Shown here piece by piece: positions 5,580-60,261 of a stretch of DNA of 64,000 nt. Origin of the DNA: Pomphorhynchus laevis (taxonomy: Eukaryota; Acanthocephala; Palaeacanthocephala; Echinorhynchida; Pomphorhynchidae); contig WNNJ02001239.1 in assembly GCA_012934845.2 (NCBI GenBank), forward strand, positions 1 to 64,000. Direction: 5' to 3'. The notes under the pieces are model-generated. The model was not told the origin of the DNA, did not search any database, and was given only the letters and a program-made list of their open reading frames with translations. Within the stretch, counting starts at the first letter, position 1. Every line of letters begins with the position of its first letter. Both the position numbers and the translations under genes were made by a program.

Positions 5580-6168
5580 ATTAATATAACTTGATTGCTT
5601 CTGTGATCTGATATTTTCCTGATTTTGGCACGATATTATCCTCACAGGTATTGTTCCTATTCTTGATACAACAACACGCTACTAATCAGCCTGGGTGGAT
5701 CTCATCAGCTGCTGACCCAGACATACATTTCACGTTTCGACCCTTATAATCTGCTTAATCCGTACACTGGTGCTGATCGGATTCGAACTCAGGACGTCTG
5801 TATCGCGATTCAACGCTACATCCACTAGGCTGGCTGCTCCAGTGGTGTACATATACATTTCTGTATATTACTTTTGGTAGTGGATCGTATTCTAACGATC
5901 TACTAGAAACCTACCGTAGTTGTATGATTCGCTAGCCGGATCACTGATTTTCATGCTGCCACTTGCAATGAATGATTTAAATTGTACTTAATTGCATCTG
6001 TGAGCTAAAAGTTTTCTGATTGTGGCACAATATTATCCTGACAGATATTGTTCCTATTCCTGATACAGCAGGACGCTACTAATCAGCTGCTGATCCAGAT
6101 CTACATTTCACGTTTTGACCATTATTATCTGCTTAGTCCGTACACTGGTGCTGATCGGATTCGATGGT
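5580..6168 (-). mobile_element. tRNA-related short retroelement, minus-strand copy plus second partial unit
   Basis: Non-coding element of the same family as 59,729-60,249. Read on the minus strand it has a Pol III box A-like word (AGCCTAGTGG, 5822-5831) and a box B-like word (GTTCGAATCC, about 5779-5788), then GTCAGCAGCTGATGAG and a tail ending at about 5580 in GCAATCAAGTTATATTAA. The unit is about 397 bp; a second, internally deleted unit begins near 5978 and runs to about 6168. The CAGCAG before CTGATGA and the TTGTTG after it could still pair using G-U wobbles. No protein is encoded; mobility would depend on a partner reverse transcriptase. A relationship to SINEs or retrozymes is inference from structure. 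Confidence 0.8.
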
Positions 6169-6340
6169 GCTGATTATCACCAGTGTACGTAATACGCGGA
6201 TAATAAGGGTCATCACGTGAAATGATGGTCTGGATTAGTAGCTAATAAGACCCACCCAGACTGATTAGTAGCGTCCTGCTATGTCAAAAATAGGAACAAT
6301 ACCTGTGAGGATAATATCGTGCCACAATCAGAAGAATTAA
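6005..6340. repeat. Head-to-head inverted pair of retroelement units
   Basis: A minus-oriented partial unit (6005 to about 6168) meets a plus-oriented partial unit (about 6170-6335), making a long imperfect palindrome centred near 6172. Both arms carry the AATATTATCCTGACAG/CCTGTGAGGATAATAT and GTACACTGGTG/CACCAGTGTAC landmarks. The plus arm has lost the CTGATGA word (it reads CTAATAA). Probably two insertions or an inversion within a tandem copy. Confidence 0.75.
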
Positions 6341-21300: not shown

Positions 21301-21447
21301 AAAATAACTATCTAGTATCTTATTCTAATGCAAAGTATATTATTTATTATCCATCCATAAAAATTTGCCACTTAAGAGTTTAAATTTATTCTTTATATTA
21401 TTGTGTTGATTTATACATTTTACCATTTTCTGCTTGATGTTATTTTT

Positions 21448-22026
21448 TTAGTAACCTAGTTTAAAATATGTATCTATTAAATTATTTAAATGATTTTGAA
21501 GAAAGCCAATATCATTACATATTGTTGCAATTCTTAAAATTTCATTATTTAATGTATTATATTTTATATTATATGGTATGCATGAATGCTCATGCAAAAA
21601 TATGTTTCTTATAAATTTAAATATGTCATCTTTACAATATAAATTAATAGTAGTTTTAGTTAATGTTAATTTAATGTTCATATCTAGATATACACCTTCT
21701 TTATCATTAATATTGGTTTTGTTAAGAATAAGACTTTCTAGATAAATTTGTTCACTAATTGAATTAAAATTATTAGAATTAAATACACATATATCATCAA
21801 TGTATCGAAACATATATTTCATATATTTATATAGTTTAGATTTAGTTTTTACACAGTTATGAACAAATTCATATTCTATAAAGCTTAAAAACAAGTCAGC
21901 TATAATTGGGCTACTATTACCACCCATTGGAACACCTTTTACTTGTCTAAATATAGATTTCCCTAATTTTAAATAATTTTGATTTATCAAAATATTTAAA
22001 GATTCTATTAATTCAATTTTATCCAT
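21448..22026 (-). pseudogene. Penelope-type RT, C-terminal half (copy 1)
   Basis: 192 codons with RT motif B (GVPMGGNSSPIIADL) and motif C with YIDD, which supply template handling and the catalytic aspartates. In the same frame as the upstream RT text but separated by TAA codons that are also present in copy 2. Residue-for-residue almost identical to copy 2, so the two copies share a recent source. Confidence 0.85.
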
Positions 22027-22419
22027 TTATTTATATTTACTTGATGGTTTAATTTTTGTTAGATAGGCGTTATAATTAATTTAACATATATATGTATATT
22101 TTTTTCCAAGATTAATTAATTTTACTAACGCTTCTTTAATATCTACTAAATCTAGATTTATATAAAGCGTACTTAAATCTTATGTATTTATATTTTGAAA
22201 ATTTATTCCTTTTGTCTGTTCTAAAAATTCTTTTGTAGAATTAATACTGAAATAGTGTTTTATACCAGTATTAATTTCGATTACCTTGCAATATTTTTTA
22301 AAATGTGCTTTAATTACTTTAAGTATTTTATTCATATAGACAGAAAGTGGTTTTAATGTACATTTAAACGCACTACATATGAACCTAGGTTTTATTGGAT
22401 ATTTATGTAATTTTGGATT

Positions 22420-23010
22420 CTAATATAATATAGGTATAGTTTTATTATCTAATTCAACCTTTCTTCCCTTTTTATCCATTATAGAACAGTGACTTGTAAT
22501 AATTGTTTCTAAACTCAACTCACTGCGTTCATATGTTGGATTTACATTTAAATCATTAGAATTAACCTCTTTCATTAGTATATCATAATAAAGCTTTTTG
22601 CATATGAAGACAAAGTTATTACTAGCTTTATCAATAGTTGTAATTATAAAGTTACCCTTTAATTTAGTAAGTTCTTTATATATATCTTTATTAATTTTGT
22701 CTTTTCTTGTATAATTGTTTGTTATTTTCATTTTATTTTTAATTTTATCAAATATATAATCTTTTCAAATGTTTATCTTTGATATATTCGAGCTTTTACT
22801 ATTAATCAGCTTACTAAAGTTATCATTTAAGTTATTATATAACGAATCGTAAATTTTATTTTTGTCGTTGTTATTATTTAATCTATATTTATACCCTTTC
22901 GATAGCAGCTTTCTTAATTCACAATTTTCAATTAATTCTAGATTATGGGTACATATATGTTCATTTATTTTATCAAAGCTAAGACTTTTACAATTGCATT
23001 CTGTTTCCAT
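22420..23010 (-). pseudogene. Penelope-type RT, N-terminal half (copy 1, broken)
   Basis: Two open pieces in the same frame (23,010-22,765 and 22,731-22,420) separated by a TGA. They carry the CNC/HICTHNL N-terminal segment and the IITTIDKA...YYDIL RT region. The second piece stops at a TAG where copy 2 has Trp in PILYWNPKLHK. An N-terminal extension continues decayed to about 23,345. Confidence 0.8.
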
Positions 23011-28300: not shown

Positions 28301-29240
28301 AATCCAATTAGCTAACTGAGTCTACATATTTAATATAATTAAAAAACAAACAAAACATAATAATGCTAAATCAAAATATTATAATTAAATAATAAAATAA
28401 ATAATTGTTATAAGATTTTTTATAATTTATATCAATTTAAAATTTAATATTAATATTTAAAATAAAAGTCAATTTTATGTGTCATCCTCCTCCGCTTGTC
28501 GAATTTTTTCCGATCGCTCACCCTCTGAAATTGCTCAACTCTCCATTGCTCGTCTTAAAAAACGTCGCCCCGAATCCATTGGCGAGTCATATCTTGCCAT
28601 CAAATCAAATCAGCTGACTGAGTCTACGATTTAATATAATTATAAAGTAAAAAAACATATAATGCTAAATCAAAATTTAATAATTAAATAATAAAGTAAA
28701 TAATTGTTATAAGATTTTTTTAAATTTAAATCAAGTTAAAATAAAAAAATGAAATTTAAAATAAACGTTACTTTTATGAATTGACTAATAAATAACAGAC
28801 GTTGTATCAAAATAAGAATTAGAGGTCATAAGGAGGAACTGCTATGCTATCAGGTTTCGGCCCTTAACTCCTCTACCCAACATAGCATAAGTTAGAGGCC
28901 AAAGAATAAATTTTAAGTATATAAATACTAGTGTATACTACTATATAAATACTATTCATTATAGTATTCATTTAAAATGTACATTAAAACCACTTTCTGT
29001 AAGTGGTTTAATAAATATATAATCATAAAACAAACAAAACATAATAATGCTAAATCAAAATTTAATAATTAAATAATAAAATTAATAATTGTTATAAGAT
29101 TTTTTATAATTTATATCAATTTAAAATGAAAAATTGAAATTTGAAATAAACATCATTTTTATGAATTGACTAATAAATAACAGACATTGTATCAGAATAA
29201 GAATTAGAGGTGATTAATGATTTTAAATTTATTCTTTATA
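28301..29240 (-). repeat. Stack of three Penelope terminal repeats with captured LINE piece
   Basis: Three copies of the 170-200 bp terminal text start at about 28,307, 28,608 and 29,010 (landmarks AACATAATAATGCTAAATCA and ATAATTGTTATAAGATTTTT). The second and third end in ATGAATTGACTAATAAATAA and GAATTAGAGG. Between the first and second lies a GC-rich LINE ORF1 fragment (28,490-28,605). The GC-rich end with GGAACTGCTATGCTATCAGG is at 28,833-28,885. Confidence 0.75.
28490..28605 (+). pseudogene. ORF1 fragment of a CR1-like LINE captured among Penelope ends
   Basis: About 38 codons open on the plus strand (CRIFSDRSPSEIAQLSIARL, then KKRRPESIGESYLAIK) with far higher GC than its surroundings. 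It resembles the PIFPDRSSSDITQLCLIYIS piece at 40.6 kb, so it belongs to the same or a sister family as the LINE at 40.5-43.1 kb. Flanked on both sides by Penelope terminal repeats. Confidence 0.6.
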
Positions 29241-29253
29241 TTATTGTGTTGAT

Positions 29254-29868
29254 TTATAAATTTACTATTTTCTGTTTGATTGTATTTTTATAGTAACCTA
29301 GTTTAAAATATGTATCTATTAAATTATTTAAATGATTTTGAAGAAAGCCAATATCATTACATATTGTTGCAATTCTTAAAATTTCATTATTTAATGTATT
29401 ATATTTTATATTATATGGTATGCATGAATGCTCATGCAAAAATATGTTTCTTATAAATTTAAATATGTCATCTTTACAATATAAATTAATAGTAGTTTTA
29501 GTTAATGTTAATTTAATGTTCATATCTAGATATACACCTTCTTTATCATTAATATTGGTTTTGTTAAGAATAAGACTTTCTAGATAAATTTGTTCACTAA
29601 TTGAATTAAAATTATTAGAATTAAATACACATATATCATCAATGTATCGAAACATATATTTCATATATTTATATAGTTTAGATTTAGTTTTTACACAGTT
29701 ATGAACAAATTCATATTCTATAAAGCTTAAAAACAAGTCAGCTATAATTGGGCTACTATTACCACCCATTGGAACACCTTTTACTTGTCTAAATATAGAT
29801 TTCCCTAATTTTAAATAATTTTGATTTATCAAAATATTTAAAGATTCTATTAATTCAATTTTATCCAT
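29254..29868 (-). pseudogene. Penelope-type RT, C-terminal half (copy 2)
   Basis: 204 codons with RT motifs B and C (GVPMGG..., YIDD) and the thumb region ending in KIVNL. It lies in the same reading frame as the N-terminal half, separated only by two TAA codons and 18 other codons (29,925-29,869), whose readable residues (NYNAYLTKIKPSSKYK) are what one expects in this part of Penelope RTs. Confidence 0.85.
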
Positions 29869-29922
29869 TTATTTATATTTACTTGATGGTTTAATTTTTG
29901 TTAGATAGGCGTTATAATTAAT

Positions 29923-30579
29923 TTAACATATATATGTATATTTTTTTCCAAGATTAATTAATTTTACTAACGCTTCTTTAATATCTACTAAATCTAGATT
30001 TATATAAAGCGTACTAAAATCGTATGTATTTATATTTTGAAAATTTATTCCTTTTGTCTGTTCTAAAAATTCTTTTGTAGAATTAATACTGAAATAGTGT
30101 TTTATACCAGTATTAATTTCGATTACCTTGCAATATTTTTTAAAGTGCGTTTTAATTACTTTAAATATTTTATTCATAAACACAGAAAGTGGTTTTAATG
30201 TACATTTAAACGCACTACATATGAACCTAGGTTTTATTGGATTTTTATGTAATTTTGGATTCCAATATAATATAGGTATAGTTTTATTATCTAATTCAAC
30301 CTTTATACCCTTTTTATCCATTATAGAACAGTGACTTGTAATAATTGTTTCTAAACTCAACTCACTACGTTCATATGTTGGATTTACATTTAAATCATTA
30401 GAATTAACCTCTTTCATTAGTATATCATAATAAAGCTTTTTGCATATAAAGACAAAGCTATTACTAGCTTTATCAATAGTTGTAATTATAAAGTTACCCT
30501 TTAATTTAGTAAGTTCTTTATACATATCTTTATTAATTTTATCCTTCCTTTTATAATTGTTTGTAGTTTTCATTTTCAT
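29923..30579 (-). pseudogene. Penelope-type RT, N-terminal half (copy 2)
   Basis: 218 codons containing the ITTIDKA/YYDIL region, the PKLHK...RFICSA fingers motif and catalytic motif A with DFSTLY. Ends at TAA 29,923 in the same frame as the C-terminal half. The corresponding region of copy 1 is interrupted by a TAG and further changes. The first 30 codons are close to copy 1, but the upstream join (KDYIFNEI then TAA) differs. Confidence 0.85.
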
Positions 30580-30600
30580 TTAAATTTCATTAAATATATA

Positions 30601-32034
30601 ATCTTTCAGTTAAAATTAGCTTTAATTTATTTTAAATATTTGATGCTAAATATTTGTAAATATTTGAATTCAATATTTACAATTACTCTTAATTGTAAAA
30701 TTTACATTAAGGTAATTCAACAATATTATTATTAACAATAATAAATACATTGTAAATTTAACATATTTATTGTCGATATGAATAAATATTCATTACATGT
30801 TATATAATTATTATATAATTATATTACTTTGTCTAATCCAATTTTTCACTCAATGTAATAGAGATTATAACTGAAGTTCATAAGTTTTTGAATTTTCTAG
30901 AAAATTCTAAATTTAAATAGTATGTAGTTTACACTCTTTCCGCCTTAGCATGCGCTAAAGTAGAAAGTCGATTGCGACACACTATTAAGATTAAAGATAG
31001 ATTTTTTATACAAAAAAGTTGACCACCTTTGATTTATGGTAATAATAGGCATATTTGAAAACTGATGATAAACAAAATTCCCATTAAGAAAATTTTGCTG
31101 GGTAATTCAATTTATCTATCAACTGGAATATTTTAATATACAGGTAGCATTATTTTTCAATAAATCGTTAGTGTGAAATGGTAATTAAGATTACAGAATT
31201 TTTCCAATCTCAACTATTAAAATGCTGTAAACGAATCAATTATGGAGTATAGTGCGTTTATCCGAACGCAAATAACATGGTGTAAATATGTCAAATGTAC
31301 AATTCAAATTACTTACACATTTAATGATTTATGGTTAACGTAATAATGTATATATTAGAATATAAGTAAGCTTAGCGCTGAATAGCCTTTATCATAAATA
31401 AATCTAATAATGCACAGCAATATACAAATTTATAATTTCAAAAGGGAGCTATTATGTAATCAAATTTAGCTGTAATTTCGCGATTTACAAACCATCGATA
31501 ATCTTTTTACTATTGTAAAAATCAATACAATTTTATATTAATTTTAGTGTCAATACATCTAAACAATATTTAATGAATGAATGATCTTAGCTTCTTTGGA
31601 TTTATTTTCATAAATATTTCGTATATATTTATAATATCTTTGAAATATTTTGCTATTTTTACTAAAAAACCAAATATTTTGATGGACTTCAATATTTTGG
31701 TAGACCACATTTGTCACAGAATCGATAGAATGCTTCCCCGACATATTTGAAAGAATTAGATACATGTTTTAATATTTAATTTATATTGTAAATATATATT
31801 AAATATAATATATTATATATCAATATAATTTATTAATATAAATTAATAAATTAATTTAAAGCATTGTGGTACTTTATTAATCATGTGTCTTGAAAGGTTT
31901 CACAAAAAACCTGACGAGGCTCAACAACACTGATATTATTAGATCAATTTTATTTATCGATATTTTTGTGTTCAGTATAAATAAAGTTGATTTATTAAGT
32001 ATAATAAAGTTGTGATTTTTTGTTTATATATAAA
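30601..32034. other. AT-rich non-coding DNA
   Basis: No gene recognised. Contains ATATTTG words around 30,630-30,690 and an AATATAATATATTATAT run near 31,800-31,860. The open frame at 31,559-31,765 (minus) shows no family features. Confidence 0.5.
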
Positions 32035-35000
32035 AATGAATATAAGTTGTTTATATCAAAAGACTAGTTAATTGTTTTGATAATAAACAGTTGATAATCA
32101 ATACTTGATTATTATAAAAAAAATAGTTGATAATCAATACTTGATTGTTTTAATAATAAAAAGTTGATAATTAATAGTTGATTGTTTTAATAAATAGTAG
32201 ATAATCAAAAGTTTATTGTATTAATAATTAATCGTCTTAATAATAAAAAGTTGAAATTAAATAGTTAATGGTTTAAATAATAAACAGTTGACATCAATAC
32301 TTGATTGTGTAAATAACATATAGTTGATTGTTTTAATAATAAACAGTTGATAATCAAAAGTTGATTGTTTTAATAATAAATGGTTGATAATCAATAGTTG
32401 ATTGTCTTAATAATAAATAGTTGATAATTGATAGTTTATTGTTTTAATAATAAAATGTCGATAATCAATAGTTGATTGTTTTAATAATAAAAAGTTGATA
32501 ATCAATAGTTGATTGTGTTAATAATAAATAGTTGATAATTAATAGTTGATTGTTTAAATAATAAACAGTTGACATCAATTCTTGATTGTGTAAATAGCAT
32601 ATAGTTGATTGTTTTAATAATAAAGAGTTGACAATCAAAAGTTGATTGTTTTAATAAAAAAAGGTTGATAATCAATAGTTGATTGTCTAAATAATAAATA
32701 GTTGATAATTAATAGTTTATTGTTTTATAATAAATAGTTAATTGTTTTATAAATAAAAAGTTGATAATCAATAGTTGATTGTGTTAATAATAAATAGTTG
32801 ATAATTAACAGATTATTGTTTTAATAATAAACAGTTGATAATCAATAGTTGATTGTGTTAATAATAAATAGTTGATAATTAATAGTTGATAGTTTTAATA
32901 ATAAAGAGTTGCTAATCAATAGTTGATTGTGTTAATAATAAATAGTTGATAATTAATAGTTGATTGTTTTAATAATAAACCGTTGATAATCAATAGTTAA
33001 TTGTTTTAATAATAAAAAGTTGATAATCAATAGTTGATTGTGTTAATAATAAATAGTTGATAATTAATAGTTGATTGTTTTAATAATAAACAGTTGATAA
33101 TCAATAGTTGATTGTGTTAATAATAAATAGTTGATAATTAGTAGTTGATTGTTTTAATAATAAACAGTTGATAATCAATAGTTGATTGTGTTAATAATAA
33201 ATTGTTGATAATTAATAGTTGATTGTTTTAATAATAAACCGTTGATAATCAATAGTTAATTGTTTTAATAATAAAAAGTTGATAATCAATAGTTGATTGT
33301 GTTAATAATAAATAGTTGATAATTAATAGTTGATAGTTTTAATAATAAATAGTTGATAATTAATAGTAGATTGTTTAATAATAAACAGTTGATAATTAAT
33401 AGTTGATTGTTTTGATAATAAACCGTTGATAATCAATAGTTAATTGTTTTAATAATAAAAAGTTGATAATCAATAGTTGATTGTGTTAATAATAAATAGT
33501 TGATAATTAATAGTTGATAGTTTTAATAATAAATAGTTGATAATTAATAGTAGATTGTTTAATAATAAACAGTTGATAATCAATAGTTGATTGTGTTAAT
33601 AATAAATAGTTGATAATTAATAGTTGATTGTGTTAATAATATATAGTTGATAATCAATAGTTGATTGTGTTAATAATAAATAGTTGATAATTAATAGTTG
33701 ATTGTTTTAATAATAAACAGTTGATAATCAATAGTTGATTGTGTTAATAATAAATTGTTGATTATTAATAGTTTATTGTTTTAATAATAAACAGTTGATA
33801 ATCAATAGTTGATTGTGTTAATAATAAATAGTTGATAATTAATAGTTGATTGTGTTAATAATAAATAGTTGATAATTAATAGTTGATTGTGTTAATAATA
33901 AATTGTTGATAATTAACAGATTATTGTTTTACAAAAATGAATGTTTTATAGTCTTAGTAATAAATAGTTGATAATTAATAGTAGATTGTTTAATAATAAA
34001 CCGTTGATAATCAATAGTTAACTGTTTTAATAATTAAATGTCGATAATTTATAGTTTATTGTTTTTAATAATAAAACTTAAATTGTTTTAATAAGTAACA
34101 GTTGATAATCAATAGTTTATTGTTTTTATTATAAATAGTTGATAATTAATAGTTGATAGTTTTAATAATAAAGAGTTGATAATCAATAGTTGATTGTGTT
34201 AATAATAAATAGTTGATAATTAATAGTTGATTGTTTTAATAATAAACAGTTGATAATCAATAGTTGATTGTGTTAATAATAAATTGTTGATTATTAATAG
34301 TTTATTGTTTTAATAATAAACAGTTGATAATCAATAGTTGATTGTGTTTATAATAAATAGTTGATAATTAATAGTTGATTGTTTTAATAATAAACAGTTG
34401 TTAATCAATAGTTGATTGTGTTAATAATAAATAGTTGATAATTAATAGTTGATTGTGTTAATAATATATAGTTGATTATCAATAGTTGATTGTGTTAATA
34501 ATAAATTGTTGATAATTAACAGATTATTGTTTTACAAAAATGAATGTTTTATAGTCTTAGTAATAAATAGTTGATAATCAATAGTTGATTGTGTTAATAA
34601 TAAATAGTTGATAATTAATAGTTAATTGTTTTAATAATAAAAAGTTGATAATCAATAGTTGATTGTGTTAATAATAAATAGTTGATAATTAATAGTTGAT
34701 TGTGTTAATAATATATAGTTGATAATCAATAGTTGATTGTGTTAATAATAAATAGTTGATAATTAATAGTTGATTGTTTTAATAATAAACAGTTGATAAT
34801 CAATAGTTGATTGTGTTAATAATAAATAGTTGATAATTAATAGTTGATTGTGTTAATAATAAATAGTTGATAATTAATAGTTGATTGTGTTAATAATAAA
34901 TTGTTGATAATTAACAGATTATTGTTTTACAAAAATGAATGTTTTATAGTCTTAGTAATAAATAGTTGATAATTAATAGTAGATTGTTTAATAATAAACC

Positions 35001-57617: not shown

Positions 57618-59141
57618 TTAGATGTGCAGCTGGAATTTTAGTAACATCGATTTTACGTCAACGAATTTAATTACATAATAGTAGATAAAATACAACGCTG
57701 TCGGAAGAAATATGAATAGATTAATGCACATATGCATAAGTGCAGCTTTGTCATCTTGAATACTTGACATTATCTTAATTAAATAGGTTATGGTCAATAA
57801 GGGAACAACAACTGTCCAGCAAAGTTTCAAATATCTGCCAGGAAATTCATGATCTTCAACTTTAATTTTAACAAGAAATTGCTTAAAATTGACTATGCAT
57901 GCGACCACCTCAACTAAGATTATGATCGGTACGATGATATTGCGGTGATCAGGAAGGTTGATAAATTCAGTAACCACATTTCCTTTGCAGATTACAGTTG
58001 GAATGGCTAAGCTGGCCATTATATTAACAACGATTAATCGTCCATTTACAGGATTTACTCGCAAATATTTAATCTGTTCACTGATTGCCGAATAGATTGC
58101 TTCCATCGTCAGGAATATTGTAGTGCTTCCTAGCAAAAGGAATAATAAACTATATACGACAAGAAAAATCGATCCATATTGAGCTTTATCAAGAAAAAAA
58201 TACACGATTTTGTAGAGTTGTAAAACGCCATTACTATCGGTAGATATAAGGTCTCCAGTGTCAAACGTGAATGTTGTAAAGGATGTAATAATTGCCAGAA
58301 TCAAAGAAAGCACAAAGTCATAAATGGCAATTGTATATGCGGTATATTTTAGATGTGTTGCGTTTTCACCAGCGTAACTAGTAAATGCGATGAATACACC
58401 TGTACCAATAGATGTCGAATGAATAATAGACGACGCTGACATATACCACGATTGAAAGTTGAGCAGATTATGCCATCGCGGTTTTAGCAATAAATCAAAA
58501 CCATCGAAAACAGATTTAATGCTCGCTGCTTTGTTCAAAACTATAAATAAACACGTGAAAATGACAAGTAAATAACCGAATGACCATTTTGCGATTGTTC
58601 TTGCTCCACCCTGAATATGGGTGAAACAGGTTGCCATGACAAAAAATAACAAGGGAAGATAATCATAACGTAATCCACGTTCACACTTATTTATTATAGT
58701 GCTGTTTAAGAATTTATGAATATCGATTGGATTTAAGTCAGTTTTGTTATGATTCAAATGTAACCAGCTATTCGGATATGACAATGAATTAAAAAATAAA
58801 TAAGAAATAACTAAACCTTCAGATATGAAGTATATCAGATAGTATACGTTAAGTATAATTATAGTATATCCAAATCCAGTAAAGCTCGGAATAAGCTTGG
58901 ACCATACTTTAATGTAAGATTTTCGAAAGGTATATCCTATAAGCAATTCCAGATAAATGACAGGAATTGAAAGTGTTAGCATTAATACGAGGTGTTGAAT
59001 GATAAAGTTTGCCCCACCATACATTGCAGCATTCTTTATCGGATGGATGAAGTCTCTATGTCCAATAACGTGAAGGATTAGAGTGAAAATGTATGGGGTA
59101 GTGCTCGACCATGTGCGTGCTTGGATTTTGCTACAAATCAT
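57618..59141 (-). CDS. Divergent SLC6-type (Na+/Cl--dependent) transporter, intronless
   Basis: 507-codon intact frame, ATG at 59,141, TAA at its end. About 12 hydrophobic helices are expected of the SLC6 neurotransmitter/amino-acid symporter family. Matches to the family: ARTW near residue 8-11, GGANF (42-46) where SLC6 proteins read NGGGAF, SIPVIYLELLIGY (58-70), GFGYTIIILNVYYLIYF (89-105, conserved Tyr pair), a large extracellular loop with two N-glycosylation sequons (132, 146), FQSWYMSASSII (229-240), IAFTSYAGEN (251-260), LLLGSTTIFLTMEAIYSAI (335-353) and GRYLKLCW (435-442). The helix-1 signature NVWRFPY is replaced by RDFIHP, and the Asn before GGG is missing, so the ion-binding site is altered. 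The N-terminus is very short. The substrate is unknown. Absence of introns could mean a retrocopy, but the frame is fully open. Confidence 0.85.
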   Translation of the reverse strand: MICSKIQARTWSSTTPYIFTLILHVIGHRDFIHPIKNAAMYGGANFIIQHLVLMLTLSIPVIYLELLIGYTFRKSYIKVWSKLIPSFTGFGYTIIILNVYYLIYFISEGLVISYLFFNSLSYPNSWLHLNHNKTDLNPIDIHKFLNSTIINKCERGLRYDYLPLLFFVMATCFTHIQGGARTIAKWSFGYLLVIFTCLFIVLNKAASIKSVFDGFDLLLKPRWHNLLNFQSWYMSASSIIHSTSIGTGVFIAFTSYAGENATHLKYTAYTIAIYDFVLSLILAIITSFTTFTFDTGDLISTDSNGVLQLYKIVYFFLDKAQYGSIFLVVYSLLFLLLGSTTIFLTMEAIYSAISEQIKYLRVNPVNGRLIVVNIMASLAIPTVICKGNVVTEFINLPDHRNIIVPIIILVEVVACIVNFKQFLVKIKVEDHEFPGRYLKLCWTVVVPLLTITYLIKIMSSIQDDKAALMHMCINLFIFLPTALYFIYYYVIKFVDVKSMLLKFQLHI

Positions 59142-59716
59142 ATTAAGTCAAAAACATACGTTCGTACTTTTCGTTTAGCAAGTACAAATCTTGACTTGTT
59201 TTTGCTTTTAGCGAAATGACGTATGAAATTCAAAATACAAAATACCACAATGATCAGATGAATAATTTTTACTAATGATAACATACATATGAAAACATAT
59301 GTGGTTAGTTGTAATGTTTAACTTGCAATCATAACTCATGACGAAGCTGTAATCCATATTTATAATGCACTTTAAATCGTCGATTAATGAGTTGACGCAC
59401 ACTTACAAAGAAAATTAAACTTTCCGATAAGCTATCATTTGAAACGTAGAATTAAAAAAAATACTTTATTATTTTAAATTATAAATTTAATTATTTTGAA
59501 TTTTAAATGTTCAAATTTAATTATAATTTATAATATTTGAAATATTATAAATTTTAAATTCTATAATCAATTTTTCAATATTGATAAACCAATATTGTTG
59601 TTCAAATTGGCAAAGTTTAGTAGGGAGTTTTTAATAATTATTTGACTTAAAAACATTTTTAAAGTTAGGTAAATTTTTCGATGAATGATTAAATTAACTG
59701 CATTTCGTAAATTGTA
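59142..59716. other. Upstream region of the transporter gene
   Basis: AT-rich. A TTAAATTATAATTTATAATATTT-like palindromic run lies at about 59,475-59,575. A 64-codon minus-strand frame (59,208-59,402, MCVNSLIDDLKC...) shows no transporter features and was not taken as an upstream exon. Confidence 0.5.
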
Positions 59717-60261
59717 GAAATTTCTATAATTTCCAGACTGATTAGTAGAGTCCTGCTGTATCAAAAATAAGATCAATACCTGTGAGGATAATATCGTGCC
59801 ACAGTCGGAAAAAATTTCAGCTCACAGATGCAATCAAATACAATTAAAAAACTATCATTGCAAGTGTCAGCATGAAAAACGGGTGATCCGGCTAGCGGAT
59901 CACACACATCGGGTAGGTTTCTAATAGATCGTTAGAATACGATCCCCAACCAAAAGTAATATACAGAAATGTATATCTACACCACTGAAGCAGCCAGCCT
60001 AGTGGATGTAGCGTTGAATCGCGATACAGACGTCCCGAGTTCAAATCCGATCAGCACCAGTGTACGGAGAAAAGCAGATAATAAGGGTCGAAACGTGAAA
60101 TGTAGGTCTGGGTCAGCAGCTGATGAGACCCATCCAGACTGATTAGTAGTGTCCTGCTGTATCAAAAAAAAAGATCAATACCTGTGAGGTTAATATCGTG
60201 CCACATTCGGAAAAAATTTCAGCTCACAGATGCAATCAAATACAATTAAGAAATTTCTATA
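59717..60261 (+). mobile_element. Retrozyme/SINE-like element with 12-bp target duplications
   Basis: A 521-bp insert (59,729-60,249) bounded by perfect GAAATTTCTATA repeats (59,717-59,728 and 60,250-60,261). It starts TTTCCAGACTGATTAG and ends AATCAAATACAATTAA. The unit is 401 bp, and its first 116 bp recur at the end (59,733-59,848 and 60,134-60,249), so the insert has terminal direct repeats. It has Pol III-like box A (AGCCTAGTGG, 59,996-60,005) and box B (GTTCAAATCC, 60,039-60,048). A CAGCAG-CTGATGA...GTC-CTGCTG arrangement (60,114-60,159) resembles a small hammerhead ribozyme. No protein. The family is also at 5.6-6.3 kb. It presumably uses another element's RT. Confidence 0.85.
60114..60159 (+). 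ncRNA. Candidate hammerhead-like motif (degenerate)
   Basis: CAGCAG (60,114-60,119), then CTGATGA (60,120-60,126), and 24 nt later GTC (60,151-60,153) followed by CTGCTG (60,154-60,159). CAGCAG and CTGCTG pair perfectly as stem I, GTC is a standard cleavage triplet, and the CTGATGA-to-GTC length (34 nt) is what small type I hammerheads have. The required GAAA is not present; GATTA stands there (60,141-60,145), and stems II and III are not convincing. An alternative core half (GGGTC-GAAA, 60,085-60,093) lies upstream and could pair GGGTC with the GACCC after CTGATGA. So: ancestral or variant ribozyme, unproven. Confidence 0.35.

Follow-up and report, generated by a model that had tools for sequence, protein, structure and literature searches.

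The insertion at positions 59,717 to 60,261 of contig WNNJ02001239.1 from the acanthocephalan Pomphorhynchus laevis, the first 64,000 nt of which form the window analyzed here, probably represents a non-autonomous, non-coding retroelement that consists of tandem 398-nt units, is processed by a hammerhead ribozyme with the block order G-C-S and is mobilized by a Penelope-like enzyme. Judging from the sequence, we put the probability of this reading at roughly 0.6. The blocks are named according to Eckert et al. (2023; PMC10085705), i.e. C (CUGANGA), G (GAAA) and S (cut site), each with its stem strands. The odds fall a little short of even for the more far-reaching proposal that the family of this insertion, termed main family in the following, possesses a natural, selection-supported type-GCS hammerhead that processes the transcripts of an animal retroelement with recent activity, and that an older relative carries both G blocks. 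If true, duplication of the G block and subsequent loss of the old one would provide a missing route to non-circular permutation of an RNA.

The insertion itself, as described in a first-pass annotation of the window, is real (Table 1). The start of its complete unit at 59733 recurs at 60133/60134, and this spacing of 401-402 nt agrees with the 401-bp unit claimed earlier. Identical flanks are likewise present, albeit with a length of 13 bp instead of 12 bp. The 116-bp terminal direct repeat exists but has nothing of a long terminal repeat; it corresponds to the beginning of a second unit in tandem. The tail AATCAAATACAATTAA noted at the end of the insertion was also found and is a recurrent 3' terminus of the family. 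The longest open reading frame (ORF) of the unit comprises 42 codons, and neither a reverse transcriptase (RT) nor a GIY-YIG endonuclease is encoded. The end of a protein-coding transposon, named in the annotation as an identity that would speak against its reading, was rejected on the grounds that no longer ORF exists and that the only strong matches in the window are the unit's own two insertions. The second of these is an older copy, flanked on both sides by AATTAATATAA as judged by eye.

A DNA search of the genome assembly (249,390,268 bases in 3,242 contigs) yielded 1,732 first-look candidates for the main family, 39 of which were scored with 133 matches, and copy numbers are therefore lower bounds. 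Thirty-eight fetched regions plus the window locus make up our sample of 39 loci. The 398-nt consensus, built from 86 full units with a mean identity of 98.2%, has a G+C content of 43%. The main family is a young, non-coding and very abundant mobile repeat. Its copies are head-to-tail arrays with varying 5' ends, and 18 of the 39 loci feature two diverging arms, such that both outer ends are 3' ends. Exact flanking repeats of at least 12 bp occur at 20 loci compared with 0.5% of 1,482 flank pairs taken from different loci, and those of at least 8 bp at 27 loci compared with 14% of the control pairs; 12 of the 39 loci are devoid of a repeat of 8 bp. Flanking repeats are thus more frequent than expected by chance.

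Outer 3' ends are concentrated at two positions. Among 57 ends, read from genomic copies and not from an enzyme assay, with one older-family fragment in locus L067 removed beforehand, 19 lie at unit positions 76-88 (site A), 33 at 108-125 (site B) and five elsewhere. The two sites are about 30 nt apart and reside 60-100 nt past the predicted ribozyme cut. The annotation had suggested a check for insert ends at one fixed position of the unit. Common 3' ends indeed exist (52 of 57), but at two positions rather than one, and 5' ends are variable. Site A is paired with site B at 14 of the 18 double-ended loci, while four have one end outside both sites and the combinations A/A and B/B do not occur. 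At two-armed loci, variants common to at least two units were counted 43 times in both arms and 9 times in a single arm (180 units from 35 loci with at least three units each, using matches of 60 nt or longer), and the arms therefore appear to derive from the same template RNA or source. Within the arrays of these 35 loci, 77 variants are found in some units, 48 in all and 372 in a single one. In L035, L038 and L057, variants alternate between successive units (1-0-1-0-1 in L035), as if a dimer had been the template. Rolling-circle copying from a single monomer circle is not demonstrated by these patterns, because partly shared and sometimes alternating variants fit multimeric templates equally well.

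The two-site, two-arm termini would be the genomic equivalent of Penelope-like priming, and it is from this analogy that we infer the identity of the helper. The purified enzyme of the Penelope-like element Poseidon from Anolis cleaves AT-rich sites on both strands and extends either strand; it starts inside the RNA, and the stretch between its two start sites equals the 30-40-bp tail of genomic copies (PMC11167929).

The main-family RNA seems to carry a self-cutting hammerhead with a non-circular order of blocks. The consensus reads GGGUC-GAA-ACG at positions 350-360, CAGCAG-CUGAUGA-GACCC at 379-396 and CGU-C^CUGCUG at 17-26 of the next unit, the cut position being predicted from the hammerhead rule. 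All elements of type GCS are present, namely CUGANGA, GAAA, a cut site of the form UH and the three stems, arranged as G, C, S. The annotation had suspected a ribozyme, and its blocks are there, though rearranged. A strict scan for all block orders returned a single hammerhead, G-C-S, both in the main consensus and in an older-family unit assembled by eye; shuffles that kept CTGATGA in place gave a hammerhead of any order in 2 of 20,000 cases, one of them G-C-S. A less stringent scan, covering the window on both strands, produced seven solutions at two places, with the G-C-S core of the insertion as the best. The C-S core has 1,182 matches in the genome, the first 100 with positions, and its reversed control none.

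For a sample of cores, 196 C blocks were collected, 173 of them with linker (the 23 dropped were incomplete or devoid of it), resulting in 88 distinct cores, 53 from the main and 35 from the older family. GAAA at the place expected for type I does not occur in any of the 53 distinct main-family cores, while 47 of them retain an intact GAA plus A upstream. Old copies of the main family show an exact GAAAC in the G block in 13 of 15 contiguous cases (21 C blocks seen, six without linker set aside). With Rfam, no match at gathering score exists within the window, and the unit reaches 16.8 bits for the type I model HH9 against a gathering score of 52 (E 0.39). A type I reading with the downstream strand was rejected because GATTA replaces GAAA and stem II is missing, and a compact type II reading with the hairpin ACGUGAAAUGU as stem III would leave the main family, as judged by eye, without an acceptable stem I.

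The older relative, likewise abundant, was reached via the fragment in L067 and has a unit of roughly 210 nt as read from locus L104; a DNA search gave 1,553 first-look candidates, of which 40 were scored with 93 matches. Its core, derived from 20 copies selected on the C-S core alone, is GGACCGAAACG-UGAAACGUAG-GUAUUGG-AU-CAGUAGCUGAUGAGGUCC-A-CCAAUAC-UGAAAUGUAG-CGUACUGCUG. From the older to the main family, stem II changes from GGACC:GGUCC to GGGUC:GACCC, i.e. by two double compensations with none broken, and P4, a helix that would connect stems I and II, from GUAUUGG:CCAAUAC to GUCUGGG:CCCAGAC, again by two double compensations. Eight of the 16 columns that differ between the families (one of them a gap) form these four double compensations. 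Sixteen random changes would produce at least four doubles in 21 pairs with p=3e-5, and at least two with none broken in stem II alone with 6e-4, both values applying to helices picked after the sequences had been viewed. The mismatched stem II combination that joins GGGTC, the 3' strand of the main family, with the older 5' strand in GAGGTCC is absent genome-wide. Old copies of the main family exhibit further compensation in P4, GUAUGGG/CUCAUAC in L135 and L138 and GCCUGGG/CCCAGGU in L145. Stem II covariation was not seen among the 53 distinct cores of the main family.

Similarity between the families is largely limited to one stretch. When the main unit was compared with older-family stretches, 23 of 54 local matches had their start at position 343 or 348, immediately ahead of the G block; most others start deeper inside, where an inverted junction often interrupts these copies. 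Thirty-three matches end at position 27, one base past stem I, and five earlier, and no older-family match at E 0.01 was found for the unit outside positions 341-30. The common stretch therefore extends from the G block through stem I. A full set of canonical C-G-S (type I) blocks, with a stem II of 3 bp, exists in the older family as well. As P4 fits both orders, specificity for G-C-S is limited to stem II and to the loss of the downstream GAAA. Owing to the decay of its copies, variation within the older family does not discriminate between the two orders. This family may represent an evolutionary intermediate, or it may hint that G-C-S was not used there.

Apart from the choice of helices after the fact, a number of observations weigh against a working G-C-S hammerhead. 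The minimum-energy fold turns P4 into a hairpin, in the loop of which the C block is hidden, so that folding may be slow or require a protein. Only 26 of the 53 main-family cores and none of the 35 decayed older-family ones have the 14 core pairs and the core letters fully intact, the young array L057 has GCGTC, a C-C mismatch in stem II, in eight of nine units, and three of the 53 distinct cores contain an A-G mismatch in P4. The compensations are confined to few branches. Between the two consensuses stem III is unchanged and stem I altered on one side, such that neither contributes covariation. Four old copies have CATAC in P4, matched by the 5' strand in L135 and L138 but not in L132 and L137, and L140 and L144 show P4 mismatches as well. 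Sixteen of the 54 inter-family matches continue past position 27, to 82 at most. In the 20 older-family copies, conservation of the upstream G block equals that of the flank (0.69 each), with 0.88 for the downstream stretch containing the canonical GAAA; together with the type I set, this means that the older family may have used C-G-S, or both orders. Finally, hammerhead mutants of the Anolis element left insertion in vitro unaffected (PMC11167929).

Taken as a working model, an array would be transcribed through several units and the G-C-S hammerhead would cut each unit at CGUC^CUGCUG. Stem II would be formed by GGGUC/GACCC, stem III by ACG/CGU and stem I by CAGCAG/CUGCUG, with helix P4 (GUCUGGG/CCCAGAC) docking stems I and II. 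Monomers or short multimers would then be ligated, possibly into circles, or used directly. A Penelope-like enzyme would nick both strands of an AT-rich target and start reverse transcription inside the RNA, at site A for one strand and at site B for the other, so that target duplications of about 12 bp would enclose either a single array or a diverging pair.

It is also conceivable, albeit unlikely in our view, that the main family descends from a type I (C-G-S) retrozyme with a dead hammerhead and spreads without self-cleavage via a Penelope-like enzyme able to start within any multimeric transcript, the upstream GGGUCGAAAC being a coincidence or a relic. The dispensability of cleavage for insertion in vitro (PMC11167929) would suit such a descendant, as would the full C-G-S set of the older family, in which GAAA is better kept downstream than upstream. 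It is harder to reconcile with the two unbroken double compensations in the upstream stem II, with the exact GAAAC in most contiguous old main-family copies and with a common stretch that takes in the G block. An ordinary tandem satellite propagated by unequal exchange without an RNA stage would account for the head-to-tail arrays of 398-nt units, and yet we regard it as highly improbable, since flanking repeats of at least 12 bp at dispersed loci, two preferred 3' ends and diverging arms already speak against it.

The annotation had further pointed at A and B boxes of RNA polymerase III (Pol III), which would fit a tandem short interspersed element (SINE) derived from a transfer RNA (tRNA), mobilized by a long interspersed element and containing ribozyme-like words by chance. 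The words exist (an A-box-like word and the B-box-like GTTCAAATCC, GTTCGAATCC in the older window copy), and the sense strand of the consensus is free of TTTT. However, the box score of the consensus is equalled by 162 of 2,000 dinucleotide shuffles and TTTT is absent from 1,696 of 2,000, such that a Pol III promoter was rejected as evidence; Rfam lists no tRNA match up to E 10, and the two-site, two-arm termini fit Penelope-like priming. We therefore rate this SINE origin as improbable. Little speaks for a small nucleolar RNA (snoRNA) either, in which the C block would act as C box (UGAUGA) and the ACTGAT that follows P4 as D box. Rfam does return weak matches to C/D snoRNAs at the older window copy (E 1.7 to 5.1), but all are far below gathering scores, and the S block, stem I and the compensation in stem II would be left unexplained, making this explanation very doubtful.

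Table 1. Features of the insertion and of the older main-family copy in the window
Feature	Position	Strand	Remarks
Left target-site duplication AGAAATTTCTATA	59716-59728		13 bp, identical to 60249-60261
Complete tandem unit	59733-60132	+	400 nt (family consensus 398); 96.3% to consensus 1-397
S-block copy in 5'-truncated first unit	59750-59758	+	no G or C block upstream
A-box-like word	59995-60005	+	Pol III role putative
B-box-like word	60038-60048	+	Pol III role putative
G block	60085-60095	+	stem II 3' strand GGGTC, GAA, stem III 5' strand ACG
P4 5' strand GTCTGG	60106-60111	+	putative stem I-II interaction helix
C block	60114-60131	+	stem I 3' strand CAGCAG, CTGATGA, stem II 5' strand GACCC
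Second, 3'-terminal partial unit	60134-60248	+	consensus 1 to about 115-117, 94% match
P4 3' strand CCAGAC	60134-60139	+	
GATTA	60141-60145	+	occupies the site of GAAA and one further base in type I; loss of canonical block
S block	60150-60159	+	stem III 3' strand TGT, C17, stem I 5' strand CTGCTG; predicted cut 60153/60154
Site A, recurrent outer 3' end	60207-60217	+	consensus about 80-85
Site B, recurrent outer 3' end	60240-60249	+	consensus about 111-121; used by window copy
Right target-site duplication AGAAATTTCTATA	60249-60261		
Second, older copy of main family	5591-6338		two diverging arms; segments 90% (393 nt), 88%, 93%, 87%, 76%

Elsewhere in the window, RT fragments that look Penelope-like by our own reading (Pfam assigns RVT_1 only) are encoded at 21448-22026 and 29254-29868. 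They reside in two copies with 97% identity (21372-22764 and 29214-30606), and in both of them similar repeats follow downstream of the ORF's 3' end. An ORF on the minus strand (29923-30579) adjoins an RT fragment and exhibits 76% identity to a P. laevis protein over 22%, a match ranked below four others. A dense tandem repeat, self-matching at many offsets, occupies 32065-34000, and an ORF for an SNF-family transporter (57618-59141, minus strand) has 48% identity over its length to a P. laevis protein.

A 296-nt retrozyme family in the same genome lends itself to comparison. Like the main family it forms tandem and diverging arrays, and most of its outer 3' ends lie 115-130 nt downstream of the cut, with others at 88 and 172-175; unlike the main family it has a canonical type I hammerhead above the Rfam cut-off. 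The units of the two families share no similarity at E 0.01, and clear target duplications were not found in the 11 loci of the 296-nt family examined, the longest common word being 8 bp. In the loci sampled for it (L070-L089, e.g. G000:C1798:33327-35971), 62 of 65 matches exceed the Rfam cut-off, and a third hammerhead, CTGATGAGCTCC..GAGCGAAACGCGTA, is located on the minus strand in repeats adjoining it (L073 and L075).

Schistosoma SM-alpha SINE-like elements carry Pol III boxes, whereas the corresponding words in the main family are not above chance. Both consist of short tandem repeats with a hammerhead, which is of type I in SM-alpha (PMC8490949). Non-LTR (lacking long terminal repeats) retrozymes of metazoa resemble the main family in their non-coding tandem units of 150-450 bp, a GC content below 50%, target duplications longer than 4 bp and high copy number (Cervera and de la Pena, 2020; PMC7229834). 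They differ in carrying type I hammerheads, and their RNA occurs as circular and linear monomers; in the main family, read from the genome alone, type I is broken and the blocks are G-C-S. The retrozyme-like interpretation of the annotation thus holds for the architecture, i.e. tandem units, target duplications, common 3' termini and high copy number, but not for a type I hammerhead; by the latter the main family falls outside the plain retrozymes and the SM-alpha-type SINEs, even though it would work like a retrozyme. A Penelope-like helper is suspected for retrozymes (PMC7229834), and the termini of the main family support it. The mobilization of retrozyme-like repeats by Penelope-like enzymes, only proposed in that study, thereby gains evidence from a genome. 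Penelope-like elements and the main family, the latter as judged from genomic ends, are alike in two RT start sites, cutting of both strands, AT-rich targets, tandem copies and a hammerhead near the starts (PMC11167929); the former encode RT and endonuclease, which the main family does not.

The literature searched contained no relevant report of a hammerhead in Acanthocephala, and the words hammerhead and Penelope are absent from the main text of the article on the P. laevis genome (PMC7310846). Type GCS was met in no report besides that of Eckert et al. (2023), and for non-circular permutation of the hammerhead the literature from 2023 on offered, beyond that study, only structure-comparison software. 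Eckert et al. searched genomes, metagenomes and metatranscriptomes for type GCS, one of six possible block orders and the only one without covariation support, and obtained one bacterial sequence, a "weak candidate" that cleaves at 0.014 per min and shows no covariation. They noted that the tandem-duplication model of circular permutation would not account for non-circular ones, for which rearrangement or convergence was offered (PMC10085705). Block order and core nucleotides of their type GCS are as in the main family, and a stem I-II helix is known from their types SGC and CSG. In contrast to that one bacterial sequence, 1,182 C-S core matches and two families with compensatory changes occur here in a mobile element of an animal. 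A single genome with more than a thousand C-S cores and two compensated families, one of which has both G blocks, thus makes type GCS and the origin of non-circular permutation testable.
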